The notes under the pieces: model-generated | Told to the model about the DNA's origin: nothing | Database searches by the model: none | Seen by the model: the letters and a program-made list of their open reading frames with translations, nothing else | Translations under genes and position numbers: made by a program | Part shown: positions 2,882 to 8,926 of the stretch, one piece after another | How positions within the stretch are numbered: position 1 is the first letter of the stretch | How the letters are laid out: each line of letters starts with the position of its first letter | Assembly: GCA_016280915.1 (NCBI GenBank) | Contig: JAEEHQ010000077.1 | Coordinates: forward strand, 1-40,278 | Direction of reading: 5' to 3' | DNA from: Bacteroidales bacterium | Lineage (GTDB): Bacteria > Bacteroidota > Bacteroidia > Bacteroidales > P3 | Length of the DNA stretch: 40,278 nt

Positions 2882-2981
2882 GAAAAAACTTTCAAAATTC
2901 ATGAAAACAAGAATGATGCCTTATTGGTCCTTGTGCGATATGTCCGGTTATACCCCGAAAAACAAGGGTAATAATGCAACT

Positions 2982-3001
2982 TTTTCGGTTATATCCGAAA
3001 A
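2982..3001. promoter_or_regulatory. Operator-like perfect inverted repeat
   Basis: TTTTCGG, six bases, CCGAAAA: a perfect 7-bp inverted repeat that overlies the -33 region and spacer of the promoter at 3008-3015. A second, imperfect copy of the same CGGTTATA..CCGAAAA sequence lies about 41 bp upstream (2945-2962). Paired palindromes over a promoter suggest binding by a dimeric regulator. No regulator gene is adjacent. Confidence 0.4.
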
Positions 3002-3007
3002 TATTCG

Positions 3008-3015
3008 TATATTTG
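3008..3015 (+). promoter_or_regulatory. Promoter (-7 box TATATTTG) of the 3285-6595 operon
   Basis: TATATTTG fits TAnnTTTG exactly. A TTTC about 21 bases upstream (2983-2986) is a weak -33 element. Transcription would start near 3020 and give a leader of about 265 bases before the first gene, containing the structured element at 3104-3240. Confidence 0.55.
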
Positions 3016-3103
3016 CATCGTCAAACAAAAATAGAAAGATATGGCATAAATTAAAGAGAATAGTAGAAAAAAAGACATATTGAAGCGTATTCACTTTTCT
3101 TTG

Positions 3104-3240
3104 CAAGTGGAAATCTGGTAAATTTCTTCAAACTTACAGCAATAGAAAGGAGAAACGCTCACGATACCGTGAGCTTTCTTGTTGCTGTAAGGGTTTTACC
3201 AGAGCCTCCACTTGAACAAATGAAGTTCACGGCTTTTTAT
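3104..3240 (+). ncRNA. Structured RNA leader (nested long-helix element), family not recognised
   Basis: Five nested helices form one rod. CAAGTGGA (3104-3111) pairs with 3207-3214; TCTGGTAAA (3114-3122) with 3195-3203; CTTACAGCAA (3133-3142) with 3182-3191; AGAAAG (3144-3149) with 3174-3179; and GCTCACG (3157-3163) with 3168-3174, closing a four-base ATAC loop. The element is followed by a small TGAAC/GTTCA hairpin and a GGCTTTTTATT tract that could terminate transcription. It lies between the promoter and the first gene of the operon, so it could be a cis-regulatory leader or attenuator, or a separate small RNA ending near 3240. I cannot place it in a named Rfam family. Confidence 0.55.
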
Positions 3241-3284
3241 TGTCACCATCAAATGGCATATTAACAATATAAAATCACATTATA

Positions 3285-3791
3285 TTGAATCGGATAATTG
3301 TAAAAATGCTTGAAAAAGCAAAAGAAAAAGGCTATATCACAGAATGTGACAAAAGCCGTATCCTTACTATGGCAGAACGATACAACATCAAAGCTACTGA
3401 CATTGAAAAACTATTGGATAGTATCAGTATCAAACCAAGCCATAATGCTGAATTCAACAGAGATTTGTTGCCAGAACTTGTATCTTTTGAAGAAGCAAAA
3501 AAATGGGTTGAGAAACATAAACAACCTATTAAAATATACCCCTATGGTGGGAGGGCGCAATACCCATTCCATGTGCAAATAAAGGGCGATGACCTTCTTC
3601 TGACAGGTGACGAGCAAAATGGTAATCCCAGTAGATACCTCCTTACAGAGGCAAGGTGGAGAAGTTTTTATGATTACGTAGAGAAACATCCCAACATGTG
3701 CCGTGGTGAGTTAGGCGAAAAATACAAGAATTATGATTGTGACGATAGACGATATTGGCCGTCAATCATATCTATCTGTAAGAGTATGTAA
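3285..3791 (+). CDS. Hypothetical protein: AKEKGYIT N-terminal module plus MCRGEL/WPSIISICK domain
   Basis: 168 residues, soluble. The first 50 residues (LEKAKEKGYITE..., ending ...EKLLDSI) form a helical module shared with the next gene and resembling a SHOCT-like element. Residues about 62-168 form a domain paralogous to the 4576-4938 product, sharing RY-LT-W-SF-YV-HP-MCRGEL-Y-Y-C-WPSIISICK. A TTG start at 3285 is preferred over the ATG at 3306 because the 17 residues from TTG align without gaps to the 17 residues of the next protein up to the shared KEKGY. It is the first gene after the structured leader, and the stop is 17 bp before the next ATG. Domain and function are not recognised; the conserved Cys, Trp and His could mark a binding site. 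Confidence 0.7.
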   Translation: MNRIIVKMLEKAKEKGYITECDKSRILTMAERYNIKATDIEKLLDSISIKPSHNAEFNRDLLPELVSFEEAKKWVEKHKQPIKIYPYGGRAQYPFHVQIKGDDLLLTGDEQNGNPSRYLLTEARWRSFYDYVEKHPNMCRGELGEKYKNYDCDDRRYWPSIISICKSM

Positions 3792-3808
3792 ACTAAAAAA
3801 ATATAATT

Positions 3809-4561
3809 ATGCATCAAGATGTCGAAAAGCTGCTCAATGCAGCAAAAGAGAAAGGTTACATTACGGAGCGTCAACGGGAGATTATTATCTCTAAAGCACA
3901 ACAATTAGGAGAGGATATGAGCGAGGTTGAATTTCTGTTGGATGATATTCCAATAAAACAGCAAGAATCACTATCATCAAGTGTAAATAATGACCCTCGT
4001 CCATCCTCAAATAAGCAAGGCAGTGTGCGGAAATGTCCAGTGTGTGGAGCCATTGTGCAAAGTTATATGGTATCCTGTCCTGAATGCAAGTATGTATTTG
4101 AAAATGTATCTGCAAATAGTTCAATGGAGAGACTTTTGGAATTATTGCAGGTAGTTGATAACACAACAAATGATTCCAGTGTGTTTGATGACAACGTGTT
4201 TAGGAAGAAGAAATCAATTATTCAGAACTTTCCTGTTCCTAATACGAAAACAGACATAATCGACTTTATCATTGCTCTACAGCCCAAAGCATTAAATATA
4301 AATGACAGACTTGCTAAATCTTATTTTGTCAAATATGAAGAGTGTATTAACAAGGCAAAGTTATTATTTCCTGATGATAAAGAAATAGCTCTATTGTTAC
4401 TGGAATATGAGAAAGTTCGAAGAAAGGCAAAATTTTCATCAGAAGGAAAATATTCAGGTGCTACTCGATTCGCCGTAAAAGGCTGTCTTTGGTATCTTAT
4501 AATTACGATTGCATTTACTATTATTTGTTTTATTTTAGCGGCTATTGCAGGGGAGTTTTAA
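3809..4561 (+). CDS. Zinc-ribbon protein with C-terminal membrane anchor
   Basis: 250 residues. Residues 1-50 repeat the AKEKGYIT module of the preceding protein. C76, C79, C90 and C93 (CPVC...CPEC, ten residues between pairs) form a zinc ribbon. Residues 110-215 are helical and polar. A single membrane segment (about 224-247, LWYLIITIAFTIICFILAAIA) ends the protein, so the bulk should lie in the cytoplasm. A zinc ribbon plus one membrane helix next to an SPFH gene recalls YdjG beside YdjI in the Bacillus ydjFGHI (PspA-associated) operon; that is an analogy from layout, not shown homology. The next gene starts 14 bp downstream. Base composition is AT-rich like the rest of this locus. Confidence 0.75.
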   Translation: MHQDVEKLLNAAKEKGYITERQREIIISKAQQLGEDMSEVEFLLDDIPIKQQESLSSSVNNDPRPSSNKQGSVRKCPVCGAIVQSYMVSCPECKYVFENVSANSSMERLLELLQVVDNTTNDSSVFDDNVFRKKKSIIQNFPVPNTKTDIIDFIIALQPKALNINDRLAKSYFVKYEECINKAKLLFPDDKEIALLLLEYEKVRRKAKFSSEGKYSGATRFAVKGCLWYLIITIAFTIICFILAAIAGEF

Positions 4562-4575
4562 TCCAAACAAGAAAA

Positions 4576-4938
4576 ATGAAGAAGTACAACAAAGATATTC
4601 AATTGACATCCTATAAAGATGTATTCAACTGGCTTGTGTCTTGCGATGCCACGAAGCAGAACCCTATTTCTATTGAGAAATATGGAGGTCAAAGTCCTCG
4701 CCCATTTAGGACACATATTGAAGGGGGAGATATTATTCTGCGAAGCAACCCACTAGATTCAATCCAACGTAGATATATATTGACAAGGGAAAAATGGGAT
4801 TCTTTCTGCCATTATGTGACAGCGCATCCAGACATGTGCCGTGGCGAATTGGCCAACAATTACAGGCAATATGAATGTACTAACAAGTATTTCTGGCCAT
4901 CCATTATTTCCATCTGTAAACGATACCATAATAATTAA
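4576..4938 (+). CDS. Hypothetical protein, stand-alone MCRGEL/WPSIISICK domain
   Basis: 120 residues from the ATG at 4576. The frame is open further left to 4489, but that would overlap the preceding gene by 73 bp, so the internal ATG 14 bp after the preceding stop is preferred. The whole protein aligns with the C-terminal two thirds of the 3285-3791 product: an F-I/V-GGD-x-x-L strand, then RYILT, W-SF, HPDMCRGEL and the terminal WPSIISICK. It lacks the N-terminal AKEKGYIT module. Its stop is 4 bp before the next ATG, so translation is probably coupled to the SPFH gene. Function unknown. Confidence 0.75.
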   Translation: MKKYNKDIQLTSYKDVFNWLVSCDATKQNPISIEKYGGQSPRPFRTHIEGGDIILRSNPLDSIQRRYILTREKWDSFCHYVTAHPDMCRGELANNYRQYECTNKYFWPSIISICKRYHNN

Positions 4939-4942
4939 CAAT

Positions 4943-6244
4943 ATGGGACTATTCAATAAAAAAGAAGGTGGCGTGATGGATGTTATCCGTTGCGACGAAA
5001 AAGATTATTTAGTGTGGAAGTGGCGTCCTGCAGGGCAAGGCTTGAATTCCACACATAAAGAGAATGCTATTCGTTATGGCAGTACCCTGCATGTAAAAGA
5101 TGGCGAAATGGCAGTGTTTGTCTATAAGCAGAACGATGGTACTCAGCAGGACTACATTACGGGACCCTACAATGACACTATCAGGACGGCTAATTTCCCC
5201 GTGCTGACACGCATTGTGGGGTTGGCTTTCGGTGGTGAGTCACCATTCCCTGCAGAGGTCTATTTCTTCAATCTGCAAGGAAACAACCAAGTACGCTTCG
5301 CTGTGCCTTATTTCCCTGTAGCAGACCCACGCTTTCTGGATTTTACAGTACCTGTTGCTGTCCGTGGACAGTTAACGTTTAACCTTACAGACGTACCGAC
5401 ATTCATCAAACTGAACCGCTTGGTGGACTTCTCTTTGGATCAATTCATGGAACAAATAAAGGGTATGGTCGTCAAGTTTACTAAGAATTATGTGGCAAAC
5501 TATCCTATTGATAACGGTATTTCTGTGCTGCAGATAGAACGCAAGGTGGTGGATATTTGCGACATGATGCAGGCTCGGCTCGCTCCTCAAATGGCAGAAG
5601 ACTTTGGTGTGAACCTGAAGCGTCTGGATATCTCGGCCATAGAAATAGACCAAGAGAGCGAAGACTACATAGAGTTTGTGCATGTCACCAAAGAGCAGCA
5701 AAAGATAATCGCTGAGCAGGTTGGACGTCGTGCTGCCATTGAGACCGATATCTATGAACAGCAAGGTCAATTGGCGACAAAAAGCCAATACATACAGGCT
5801 CATGCCATCAATCAGCAGGCCGAGGTATTAAAGGCTGCTGCAAACAACCTTGGCCAGATAGGGCAGATGGATATTGGCAATGGAATTGCAGCAGGGATGA
5901 ACCCGGCAGGTATGATGATGGGCATGGCTATGGGCGGTGCTATGGGTGGTCAGATGGCCAATATGATGACCGGCATGGGTCAAATGCAGCAACAGGCTAT
6001 GCAAACACCGCCACCAATGATGCAGTATTATGTTAATGTTAACGGACAGAACCTTGGACCATGCAATATGCAGCAACTGCAACAAATGGCTCAAAGTGGA
6101 CAACTCACACAGCAAACTTATGTTTGGAAACAGGGTATGGCCAATTGGGATTTTGCTAGTAATATTCAAGAATTATCATTATTGTTCGGTGCCGTACCTC
6201 CTCCGTTGCCCCCAGCCCCTCCTGTTCAGTCTCAAAATAATTAA
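4943..6244 (+). CDS. SPFH-domain protein of the YdjI/virion-core-like type with C-terminal GYF_2 domain
   Basis: 433 residues from ATG 4943. An upstream ATG at 4841 is in frame but would lie deep inside the preceding gene. Residues 1-300 match the bacterial SPFH/Band 7 subfamily represented by YdjI: an MGLFNKK start, a VWKW motif, FxVPYFPVADPRF, then a long charged helix around EQQKIIAEQVGRRAAIETD. Residues about 305-358 are a Met/Gly/Gln-rich linker. Residues 359-405 (YYVNVNGQNLGP...LTQQTYVWKQGMANW) form a GYF_2-like domain, and a Pro-rich tail follows. Family knowledge: SPFH proteins oligomerise at membranes, and Bacillus YdjI supports PspA at stressed membranes. No pspA lies in this window. 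The gene is richer in G+C than the three before it. It is followed after 3 bp by a small membrane protein. Confidence 0.88.
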   Translation: MGLFNKKEGGVMDVIRCDEKDYLVWKWRPAGQGLNSTHKENAIRYGSTLHVKDGEMAVFVYKQNDGTQQDYITGPYNDTIRTANFPVLTRIVGLAFGGESPFPAEVYFFNLQGNNQVRFAVPYFPVADPRFLDFTVPVAVRGQLTFNLTDVPTFIKLNRLVDFSLDQFMEQIKGMVVKFTKNYVANYPIDNGISVLQIERKVVDICDMMQARLAPQMAEDFGVNLKRLDISAIEIDQESEDYIEFVHVTKEQQKIIAEQVGRRAAIETDIYEQQGQLATKSQYIQAHAINQQAEVLKAAANNLGQIGQMDIGNGIAAGMNPAGMMMGMAMGGAMGGQMANMMTGMGQMQQQAMQTPPPMMQYYVNVNGQNLGPCNMQQLQQMAQSGQLTQQTYVWKQGMANWDFASNIQELSLLFGAVPPPLPPAPPVQSQNN

Positions 6245-6247
6245 AAT

Positions 6248-6595
6248 ATGAAAGTAAAAGTTATACCTACTATTATTGCTTGTGGCATCAGCTCACTGCT
6301 TGCGTATGCATTTTACAACATCTGCCATACGGAAGGTAAGGAATTGTTGCTTGCTATTGGTGGTGGATTATGTATATTTGTGACTTTAGCTACAAGTCTT
6401 GGTCTCCGTTTCGAACAACCAAGAACTTCAGCAAATGTAGCTTTTGTCGGAGTTGTGTTCTTCTTGTTGATGCTTGTGAGCAACGCCATTTTTGCCTATT
6501 CGCACTTCGTGACGCATTCATATGTCATTGTTAATGGGTTATTACTGTTGTCTTTTTTATTGATTTCTTATTATGTGACAAAAGCGAAACAGTAA
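6248..6595 (+). CDS. Small integral membrane protein, four predicted helices
   Basis: 115 residues with four hydrophobic segments (about 7-26, 34-52, 64-85 and 91-110) and almost no soluble part. It ends in a short basic tail, TKAKQ. It starts 3 bp after the SPFH stop, so it is almost certainly co-translated with it and could be a membrane partner of the SPFH protein. No family recognised. A 6-bp hairpin just after the stop (6595-6612) lacks a T tract, so no clear terminator ends the operon. Confidence 0.75.
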   Translation: MKVKVIPTIIACGISSLLAYAFYNICHTEGKELLLAIGGGLCIFVTLATSLGLRFEQPRTSANVAFVGVVFFLLMLVSNAIFAYSHFVTHSYVIVNGLLLLSFLLISYYVTKAKQ

Positions 6596-8874: not shown

Positions 8875-8926
8875 CTACTTTTTATTGAAATGGTAAAAAA
8901 AAGTTCGTAATATGGCGAAAAAGGTG

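Follow-up and report, generated by a model that had tools for sequence, protein, structure and literature searches.

The window, by which we mean the whole 40,278-nucleotide stretch analysed here (Bacteroidales bacterium, assembly GCA_016280915.1, contig JAEEHQ010000077.1), carries five same-strand genes that span positions 3285-6595 with intergenic gaps of 17, 14, 4 and 3 bp, and ahead of them a leader with a promoter box, a minimal open reading frame (mini-ORF) and a structured element that we call element E (Table 1). The initial annotation had described this arrangement of the five genes, the shuffling of two modules among the first three genes (A with X, A with a zinc ribbon and a membrane anchor, X by itself), and the SPFH/GYF_2 protein and four-helix membrane protein that follow; these descriptions were borne out by recomputed ORF coordinates, by protein searches, and by Pfam together with hydrophobicity, respectively. 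For gene 1, the TTG start has support from three homologues of its product (P0012, P0017, P0021), whose first residue is a methionine at the position encoded by TTG. A single transcript for all five genes is plausible on sequence grounds. The only forward-strand -7 box of the Bacteroidetes type (TAnnTTTGC) before position 8926 lies at 3008, upstream of all five genes, and the sole forward-strand terminator-like site that was found lies inside the leader. Sigma-70-like matches also occur inside the genes, with no excess over expectation (17 on both strands, against 12.3 +/- 3.6 in shuffled sequences).

Table 1. Features of the five-gene locus and its leader, in window coordinates.
Feature	Position	Strand	Description or basis
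-7 promoter box TATATTTGC	3008..3016	+	matches TAnnTTTGC
Two-codon mini-ORF ATG-GCA-TAA	3041..3049	+	leader upstream of element E
Element E, structured RNA leader, candidate transcription attenuator	3083..3239	+	model R1, fold z, covariation
Putative long antiterminator hairpin	3104..3214	+	MFE structure
Antiterminator arms P1, P2	3104-3111/3207-3214, 3115-3122/3195-3202	+	MFE structure
Antiterminator arms P3, P4	3133-3142/3182-3191, 3157-3163/3168-3174	+	MFE structure
Predicted competing terminator: CCGTGAGC (3167-3174) with GTTCACGG (3225-3232), then T-tract	3167..3239	+	MFE of 3' half
Gene 1 (p1)	3285..3791	+	module A + domain X, 168 aa, TTG start
Gene 2 (p2)	3809..4561	+	module A + zinc ribbon + C-terminal TM, 250 aa
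Gene 3 (p3)	4576..4938	+	domain X alone, 120 aa
Gene 4 (p4)	4943..6244	+	SPFH (Band_7_1) + C-terminal GYF_2, 433 aa
Gene 5 (p5)	6248..6595	+	four-TM protein, 115 aa

The SPFH protein p4 scores far above the Pfam gathering cut-offs for both Band_7_1 (PF13421; 79.7 bits against 24, E 3.1e-22) and the C-terminal GYF_2 (PF14237; 67.3 bits against 25.8), while its operon partners differ from those of other proteins with this pair of domains. It lacks a transmembrane segment, no 19-residue window exceeding a hydrophobicity of 1.6. The CPxC/CPxC ribbon of p2 matches Zn_ribbon_3 below the cut-off (E 0.001, 18.9 bits against 27), and residues 221-250 at the C-terminus of the protein make up its single hydrophobic segment, as against four segments in p5. 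With a threshold of E<=1e-8, 85 of the 393 genomes sampled from the order contain a p4 relative. At the six loci of its closest relatives, homologues of p2 are present five times (E 1.8e-20 to 1.7e-38) and those of p5 four times (E 3.7e-21 to 2.3e-4), the E values referring to a small local set, and the core of A/zinc-ribbon protein, SPFH protein and four-TM protein is also seen in other families within the order. As for more distant p4 relatives, in at least four (L132, L140, L141, L143) the next gene, or the one beyond a small membrane protein, instead encodes a protein of 348-370 aa whose start is, by eye, Cys-rich; a relative of p4 in L129 (the same gene as in L004) appears by eye to carry Cys-rich ribbons at its C-terminus instead of GYF_2.

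The closest described system is PspA-YdjGHI of Bacillus subtilis, where, according to the part of PMC8581546 consulted, a soluble, anchor-less SPFH protein needs two co-encoded membrane proteins for its recruitment to the membrane. The window protein p4 resembles that protein in having no transmembrane segment of its own and in being encoded with two membrane proteins, p2 and p5, and differs from it in its C-terminus, which is GYF_2 here and a zinc finger in Bacillus; a further difference is that a Pfam scan of seven proteins (p1-p5 and the two nearest neighbours) found no PspA/IM30 homologue, and the consulted part names no counterpart of X or module A. The initial annotation had proposed a PspA-free complex of the YdjI type with X as a new component, and its first half is supported: soluble SPFH protein, two membrane partners, seven scanned proteins without a PspA, and a core that recurs.

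Its second half is not supported. Domain X, a rare small domain for which Pfam holds no family, is present in p3 and p1 (42% identity, E 1e-27), the latter being the sole other match of p3 in the genome, also when a profile is used. Module A (AKEKGYIT) is common to p1 and p2, and A+X, found in eight protein clusters (that of gene 1 and seven others), is by this recurrence a stable architecture. AlphaFold2 predicts the fold of X in p3 with pLDDT 93.1 and pTM 0.86, and no convincing match to it was seen among solved structures. A remote branch, X', aligns with X in hhalign at a probability of 95 (E 3.6e-8 over 115 columns; 95.6 in a rerun, against at most 5.2 for 40 column-shuffled controls and 0.2 for a reversed one); the two profiles match each other reciprocally, and the models have their secondary-structure elements in the same order, that of X' at a pLDDT of only 76.4. 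In one relative (G009), a gap of 5 nt separates X' from a different SPFH gene downstream of it, so that X or X' adjoins SPFH in two independent, divergent loci, those of the window and G009. That said, at 9 of the 11 readable X/X' loci the fetched stretch contains no SPFH relative (of 32 X protein clusters, two are the window's own and P0014 is the protein of locus L027; the neighbours of the other 29 fall outside this count), and the X profile has no match among the ORFs listed around the six SPFH genes closest to p4. In other words, X is found mostly apart from SPFH genes, which is what the initial annotation had itself named as refuting its proposal, and by this distribution X is the occupant of a variable slot outside the conserved core. 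As a separate matter, the idea that X belongs to phages, plasmids or viruses was considered and rejected, no relative being found in viral contigs or plasmids (the latter by tblastn with p3 only).

Are X and the SPFH genes then unrelated passengers of one accessory operon, with nothing but the leader in common? The 9 loci without SPFH, and the fact that element E leads many unrelated operons, argue for this, and we regard it as a serious alternative, albeit one that falls somewhat short of the reading preferred below. Namely, the two divergent adjacent cases, the presence of module A in both p1 and p2, which ties X to the partner of the SPFH protein, and the stability of A+X over eight clusters all speak against it. 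Given the two independent adjacent cases, a functional link between X and SPFH is possible.

Element E, which was absent from the initial annotation, is the most widely conserved feature of the locus. It is roughly 155 nt long and ends in a U-tract; the model R1 scores the window copy, itself part of the model, at 151.7 bits (3083-3237), and the fold z for 3070-3250 is -8.1. We aligned 41 copies, namely that of the window and 40 others taken from the best 50 of about 100 listed places in the genus (102 by hand count). Since these copies are related (five of them lead the same three-gene operon), counts over the 41 are not independent events. Alignment A6 and model R1 were built from 37 of them. 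MAFFT placed P1 badly in A6, and R1 consequently has a poorer structure of 17 pairs, without P1; its listed matches are still full length. For the long hairpin, arms P1, P2 and P4 (P3 was left out of this count) are paired in 98.5% of cells over the 41 copies, with 143 both-side changes, compared with at most 38.2% when the alignment is slid. The covariation score is 0.477 against 0.129 in shuffles that ignore the relatedness of the copies (0 of 500). Two of the five measures are less clear, namely the number of pairs with both-side changes (11 against 8.6 in shuffles, 2 of 500) and that of further pair types (26 against 23.1, 31 of 500).

The competing terminator forms in the predicted minimum-energy structure of the 3' half in all 41 genus copies, to each of which both alternatives are thus available; by a looser criterion the same is true of all 30 order-level copies that were examined as loci among the places matched, 28 of which lie outside the genus. 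Within the genus, its arms do not covary (both-side changes at 0 of 8 pairs; 98.2% paired against 98.1% in shuffles), and the case for this predicted pairing rests on conservation, not covariation. Support across genera is modest, with the 3' fold in L171 and L191 hardly above shuffles (z about -1) and no T-tract in the last positions of L191. When 3180-3245 of the window is folded without the CCGTGAGC arm, no excess stability is seen (z 0.46). The median energies are -51.5 kcal/mol for the long hairpin and -25.1 kcal/mol for the terminator, a roughly twofold difference in stability, and the 5' half of the long hairpin is transcribed first; therefore, read-through may be the default.

Upstream of element E, the TAnnTTTGC box is enriched in the window (18 against 6.1 expected, 0 of 100 shuffles), and T[AG]nnTTTGC precedes 32 of the 41 copies; among the 29 copies with both box and mini-ORF, the box lies 28-34 nt ahead of the mini-ORF in 25. 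One could propose that translation of this minimal ORF is the actual sensor, as in leader-peptide attenuation of the CTnDOT tetQ type. The tetQ leader, a structured Bacteroides leader, reportedly carries a three-codon ORF. The likeness is a very short ORF in a structured leader; the difference is that the mini-ORF at E has two codons or is a bare ATG-stop, and that E would control transcription rather than translation. In support of such a sensor, the 85 nt that precede the first hairpin contain ATG, none or one codon, and a stop in 37 of the 41 genus copies (11.3 expected from first-order Markov samples), six of these having lost the middle codon yet kept ATG-TAA, and the second codon varies (GCA 20, ACA 3, AGA 3, GTA 3, ATA 2). 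Against it, four genus copies (L072, L075, L082, L091) have no mini-ORF, and outside the genus the mini-ORF is not general, a string of this type standing within 70 nt in only 10 of 28 examined copies by raw count. What is more, 23-38 nt separate the end of the mini-ORF from the first small hairpin (35 in the window; its ATG lies 32-47 nt ahead of that hairpin), and therefore a ribosome there would not obviously block the switch. On balance, we consider translation as the sensor unlikely.

In the order, matches to E are found in 98 of 393 genomes and 65 of 206 genera, and the genes downstream are, where examined, mostly unrelated accessory genes, including restriction and methylase genes. Rfam 15 has no match to E in the window (E<=1), at 20 genus loci including L029, which is the window (E<=0.1), or at 18 order-survey loci, two of them from the genus (E<=0.5); phage records contain no copy; and E was not found in the published literature searched, where the human-microbiome candidate RNAs of PMC8040213, consulted in part, may include it as an unnamed motif. 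Could E instead be a mobile, MITE-like palindromic DNA repeat that lands near genes, its structure reflecting inverted repeats rather than RNA regulation? Copy number does differ between genomes (1-5 copies listed per matched genus genome, and up to at least 7 in the order survey, where the best 7 candidates per genome were scored and the numbers are lower bounds), several order-level matches are no more than 700 nt away from where a contig stops, as they would be near repeats, and weak reverse-strand matches (L156, L158, L129; 30-32 bits) are read as palindromy rather than as copies of E. We nevertheless find this improbable. In 30 of 41 genus and 26 of 30 order-level copies, an ORF of at least 100 aa begins on the same strand no more than 160 nt downstream, while divergent ORFs are seen in 5 of 41 and 2 of 30; the promoter box stands at near-fixed spacing; the covariation is found at a mean column identity of 69%; and there is a second conserved structure. 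A further match at 3910-4073 of L159 (29.5 bits), which lies 73 nt ahead of a gene, may represent a real copy of E that has diverged.

Having mutually exclusive predicted terminator and antiterminator folds ahead of genes, as computed for all copies examined (that in L191 without the T-tract), E is read here as an apparently undescribed transcription attenuator. It shares with attenuators and riboswitches two mutually exclusive conserved predicted folds, a U-tract and a place 5' of genes, and differs from them in having no Rfam 15 family, an antiterminator that is one long hairpin, and no consistent downstream function. More tentatively, and with doubt on our side, E might be a new class of regulatory RNA, spread through the order, that responds to one common signal and controls scattered accessory operons (surface proteins, restriction-modification, DUF6175 clusters, the SPFH/X module), and that in one genus gained an obligatory start-stop mini-ORF coupling the switch to translation initiation or termination.

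The explanation we prefer, with a probability of roughly one half, has two layers: a Bacteroidales SPFH membrane module made of p1-p5, and E as a transcription attenuator 5' of gene 1. For the protein layer, its computed basis is the domains, the TM segments, the conserved p2-p4-p5 set and the variable X slot. In this layer, p4 would be recruited to the inner membrane by tail-anchored p2 and four-TM p5 and would oligomerise there, with its GYF_2 end binding proline-rich partners; p1 and p3 would serve as cytosolic adaptors that can replace each other and that tune the module, and module A of p1, whose source was probably a p2-type gene, would dock X onto the same partner as p2. The control layer is based on the two mutually exclusive conserved predicted folds and on their position and orientation ahead of genes. 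Transcription would start just after the box at 3008 and cross the two-codon ORF; RNA whose 5' and 3' halves pair with each other into the long hairpin would allow read-through, which may be the default state, and a bound factor holding the 5' half would free the 3' terminator and U-tract to stop transcription before gene 1. The possible defence role raised by the initial annotation gained no positive evidence. SPFH proteins and zinc-ribbon/TM partners are known in some defence loci, and E also leads restriction and methylase genes elsewhere; an anti-phage system is nonetheless very unlikely here, PADLOC giving only weak matches, to p2, p4 and p5 (the best, at E 0.0039 and 14.3 bits, in the zinc-ribbon region of p2; absence from that library is not proof) and X having no relative in viral contigs; the flanking genes covered are two, by a Pfam scan.

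If the two-layer explanation is right, the SPFH module is a PspA-free arrangement in Bacteroidales, with a soluble SPFH scaffold, membrane partners and a swappable X that belongs to no known family. Likewise, should this reading of E be correct, one in four of the genomes sampled from the order has a so far uncatalogued transcription switch before accessory operons, which would offer a handle on how such bacteria hold accessory genes off until needed. Finally, known cis-regulatory RNAs accompany E at some other loci, although none is near E in the window: the DUF805 (RF03081) and DUF805b (RF02914) RNAs lie about 18-110 nt downstream of E in L043, L166, L181 and L031, as separate short elements that do not overlap with it.

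What proved more general than the operon itself is a structured RNA leader (element E) 5' of gene 1, which the initial annotation had overlooked. The region from 3070 to 3250, which encloses the element, folds at -67.1 kcal/mol, with a z of -8.1 relative to shuffled sequence, and of 99 related genomes, 46 have a BLAST match to E, 44 of these belonging to the window's own genus. In an alignment of 41 copies, helices P1, P2 and P4 of the long hairpin are paired in 98.5% of cells, as against at most 38.2% in a slid control, with both-side changes in 143 cells and four or five pair types at the outer P1 positions. The covariation score is 0.477, compared with 0.129 for shuffled alignments (0 of 500). 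Two further measures separate less clearly from the shuffles (2 and 31 of 500), and all these shuffles ignore the relatedness of the copies.

The 3' end of E consists of GTTCACGG and a T-tract, and has an alternative partner in the right arm of P4, CCGTGAGC. The minimum-energy structure of the 3' half contains this terminator pairing in every one of the 41 copies (with a median of -25.1 kcal/mol and a mean z of -4.1), the long hairpin having a median of -51.5 kcal/mol; within the genus the pairing is conserved, with no both-side changes. At the level of the order, Bacteroidales, both states are present in 30 copies by the criterion used, namely at least five terminator pairs and a long-hairpin z below -3; at loci L171 and L191 the 3' fold hardly exceeds shuffled sequence in stability, and there is no T-tract in L191. 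Counting by eye among order-level copies, A in the P4 arm goes with T in the tail in 5 of 5, and G with C or T in 25 of 25.

E is best read as a candidate transcription attenuator. Namely, pairing of its 5' half with its 3' half would give read-through, and folding of the 3' half on itself would give termination. The 5' half might be occupied by a protein, by an sRNA or by a ribosome at the leader's mini-ORF, although the mini-ORF sits far enough from the switch to make the last of these uncertain. On the same strand, 30 of 41 genus copies and 26 of 30 order-level copies are followed within 160 nt by the start of an ORF of 100 aa or more, compared with 5 of 41 and 2 of 30 on the divergent side. 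In the genus, a Bacteroidetes-type -7 box lies upstream of E in 32 of 41 copies; of the 29 copies that also have a two-codon or start-stop ORF, 25 have the box 28-34 nt 5' of that ORF. What is more, ATG-(0 or 1 codon)-stop occurs in 37 of 41 genus copies versus 11.3 expected; outside the genus the figure is 10 of 28, a raw count without a chance baseline.

A covariance model of E, run on 393 genomes of the order, matches 98 of them, in 65 of 206 genera. Two genomes of genus g26 (G115 and G309) carry at least seven copies each and, these figures being lower bounds, copy number there may be higher. The genes behind E are diverse: a Pfam scan matched six of ten chosen (a TonB-type receptor, a BspA-like surface protein, DUF6175, two ResIII helicase proteins and an N6 methylase), and the remaining four had no Pfam family. 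No Rfam 15 family matched E in any copy examined. At four loci, the leader that contains E also carries an Rfam DUF805/DUF805b RNA, in tandem with E and 3' of it. At L171, a SAM-I/IV riboswitch (54 bits) is located some 150 nt 5' of an E copy found ahead of a ResIII/HsdR-type gene, on the opposite strand to that copy.

Coordinates of features in the window and at the loci examined
Feature	Sequence	Position	Strand	Remark
CCGAAAA-like repeat	window	about 2943 and 2986		two copies
Operator-like region	window	2943-3003
-7 box	window	3008	+
Mini-ORF	window	3041	
Element E	window	3083-3239	
Second tiny ORF	window	3253-3264	
Gene 1 (p1)	window	3285-3791	+
Gene 2 (p2)	window	3809-4561	+
Gene 3 (p3)	window	4576-4938	+
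Gene 4 (p4)	window	4943-6244	+
Gene 5 (p5)	window	6248-6595	+
DUF805/DUF805b RNA	L181	1700-1765		reaches gathering score
DUF805/DUF805b RNA	L166	1436-1471		reaches gathering score
DUF805/DUF805b RNA	L043	1448-1483		reaches gathering score
DUF805/DUF805b RNA	L031	569-604		below gathering score
SAM-I/IV riboswitch	L171	1245-1348	-
Exported-protein genes	L127	2349-3323	
Small GYF_2-like protein	L127	6806-7159	
Small GYF_2-like protein	L131	7173-7881	
Remote X protein	L163	5103-5492	

As for the operon, the initial annotation of five genes and of their spacing holds, and the shuffling of modules among them was rightly observed. In particular, p1 consists of module A (the AKEKGYIT stretch) and domain X, p2 of module A with a zinc ribbon and a transmembrane segment at the C-terminus, and p3 of X without other modules; p4 joins an SPFH domain (Pfam Band_7_1, 79.7 bits) to a C-terminal GYF_2 (67.3 bits), and p5 has four hydrophobic segments. 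The TTG start of gene 1 is likely right, because p1 homologues have their initial methionine at the same place. The -7 box ahead of the operon is the single plus-strand match before 8926, sigma-70-like matches are at about chance level, and no terminator-like sites were found within the five genes on this strand. By eye, an operator-like inverted repeat, TTCGG-TTATAT-CCGAA, lies just 5' of the box; a sequence like CGGTTATA-nn-CCGAAAA occurs twice there, and its second copy makes that repeat. Between the leader U-tract and gene 1, ATG GCA TAT TAA echoes the ATG GCA TAA of the mini-ORF.

Matches to p4 at E<=1e-8 occur in 85 of 393 genomes of the order. At the six loci with close relatives (42-57% identity across the matched stretch), a p2 homologue is present at five (absent from L130) and a p5 homologue at four. 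The slot between p2 and p4, which holds X in the window, holds a 65-aa zinc-ribbon-like protein in L126, a 143-aa protein in L128 and an 81-aa membrane protein in L129, and is empty in L127 and L131; the X profile matched none of the ORFs neighbouring the six relatives. Given the recurrence of p2, p4 and p5 and the variable slot, the module is, by sequence comparison, p2, p4 and p5, with X an optional addition. In Bacillus subtilis, YdjI depends on YdjG and YdjH for membrane recruitment (PMC8581546), to which p4 with p2 and p5 may be likened. By this analogy, the operon would most likely produce an SPFH scaffold that p2 and p5 bring to the membrane, the X proteins serving as optional adaptors. 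Exported-protein genes precede the SPFH module in L127, where one product is, by eye, similar to the DUF6175 proteins encoded behind E in other genomes; in L130, too, such genes lie ahead of the SPFH gene. Directly behind the SPFH gene, L131 and L127 encode small GYF_2-like proteins that by eye correspond to the C-terminal region of p4, as if the domain had been copied out.

The initial reading, a PspA-free SPFH membrane complex with X as a component, was half right: such a module is plausible and conserved, and X is no fixed component of it, given the blank profile at the six loci and the scarcity of SPFH relatives beside X. Namely, a relative of p4 or of the SPFH protein of genome G009 is present at 2 of 11 readable loci of X or its remote branch X', i.e. 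in the window and in G009, where X' lies 5 nt 5' of another SPFH gene, whose protein has a GYF_2-like end; none was found at the other nine, three fetched stretches being shorter than 7 kb. That X and X' are homologous rests on profile comparison, controls, reciprocal profile hits and the same helix/strand order in two models, that of X' being of middling confidence.

No family in Pfam, NCBIfam or PADLOC covers X, and a search of 5.8 billion proteins gives 32 clusters of X at E<=0.001, including two from the window itself; the A+X architecture is seen in eight clusters, again including the window's. The two X copies (42% identity, E 1e-27) are the only ones in the window's genome by sequence and profile search, and this genome is the single one with X among 393 of the order and 120 of the genus. 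In the family to which the only other genome found belongs, the figure is 2 of 299, the second remote (E 7e-4), and two degenerate patterns returned one X locus from 84,980 species genomes; the X' profile has members in 8 of the 120 genus genomes. The X model, a confident one (pLDDT 93.1), has no convincing match among solved structures. Its invariant residues are for the most part aromatic and hydrophobic, a pattern more suggestive of a binding domain than of an enzyme. Elsewhere, X' neighbours are in several cases small lipoprotein-like or membrane proteins and once, reading the sequence by eye, a probable radical-SAM protein. In L163, the remote X protein adjoins two others, one of 725 aa whose CxxxCxxC stretch is radical-SAM-like and one of 341 aa that has hydrophobic segments, possibly a peptide-modification context.
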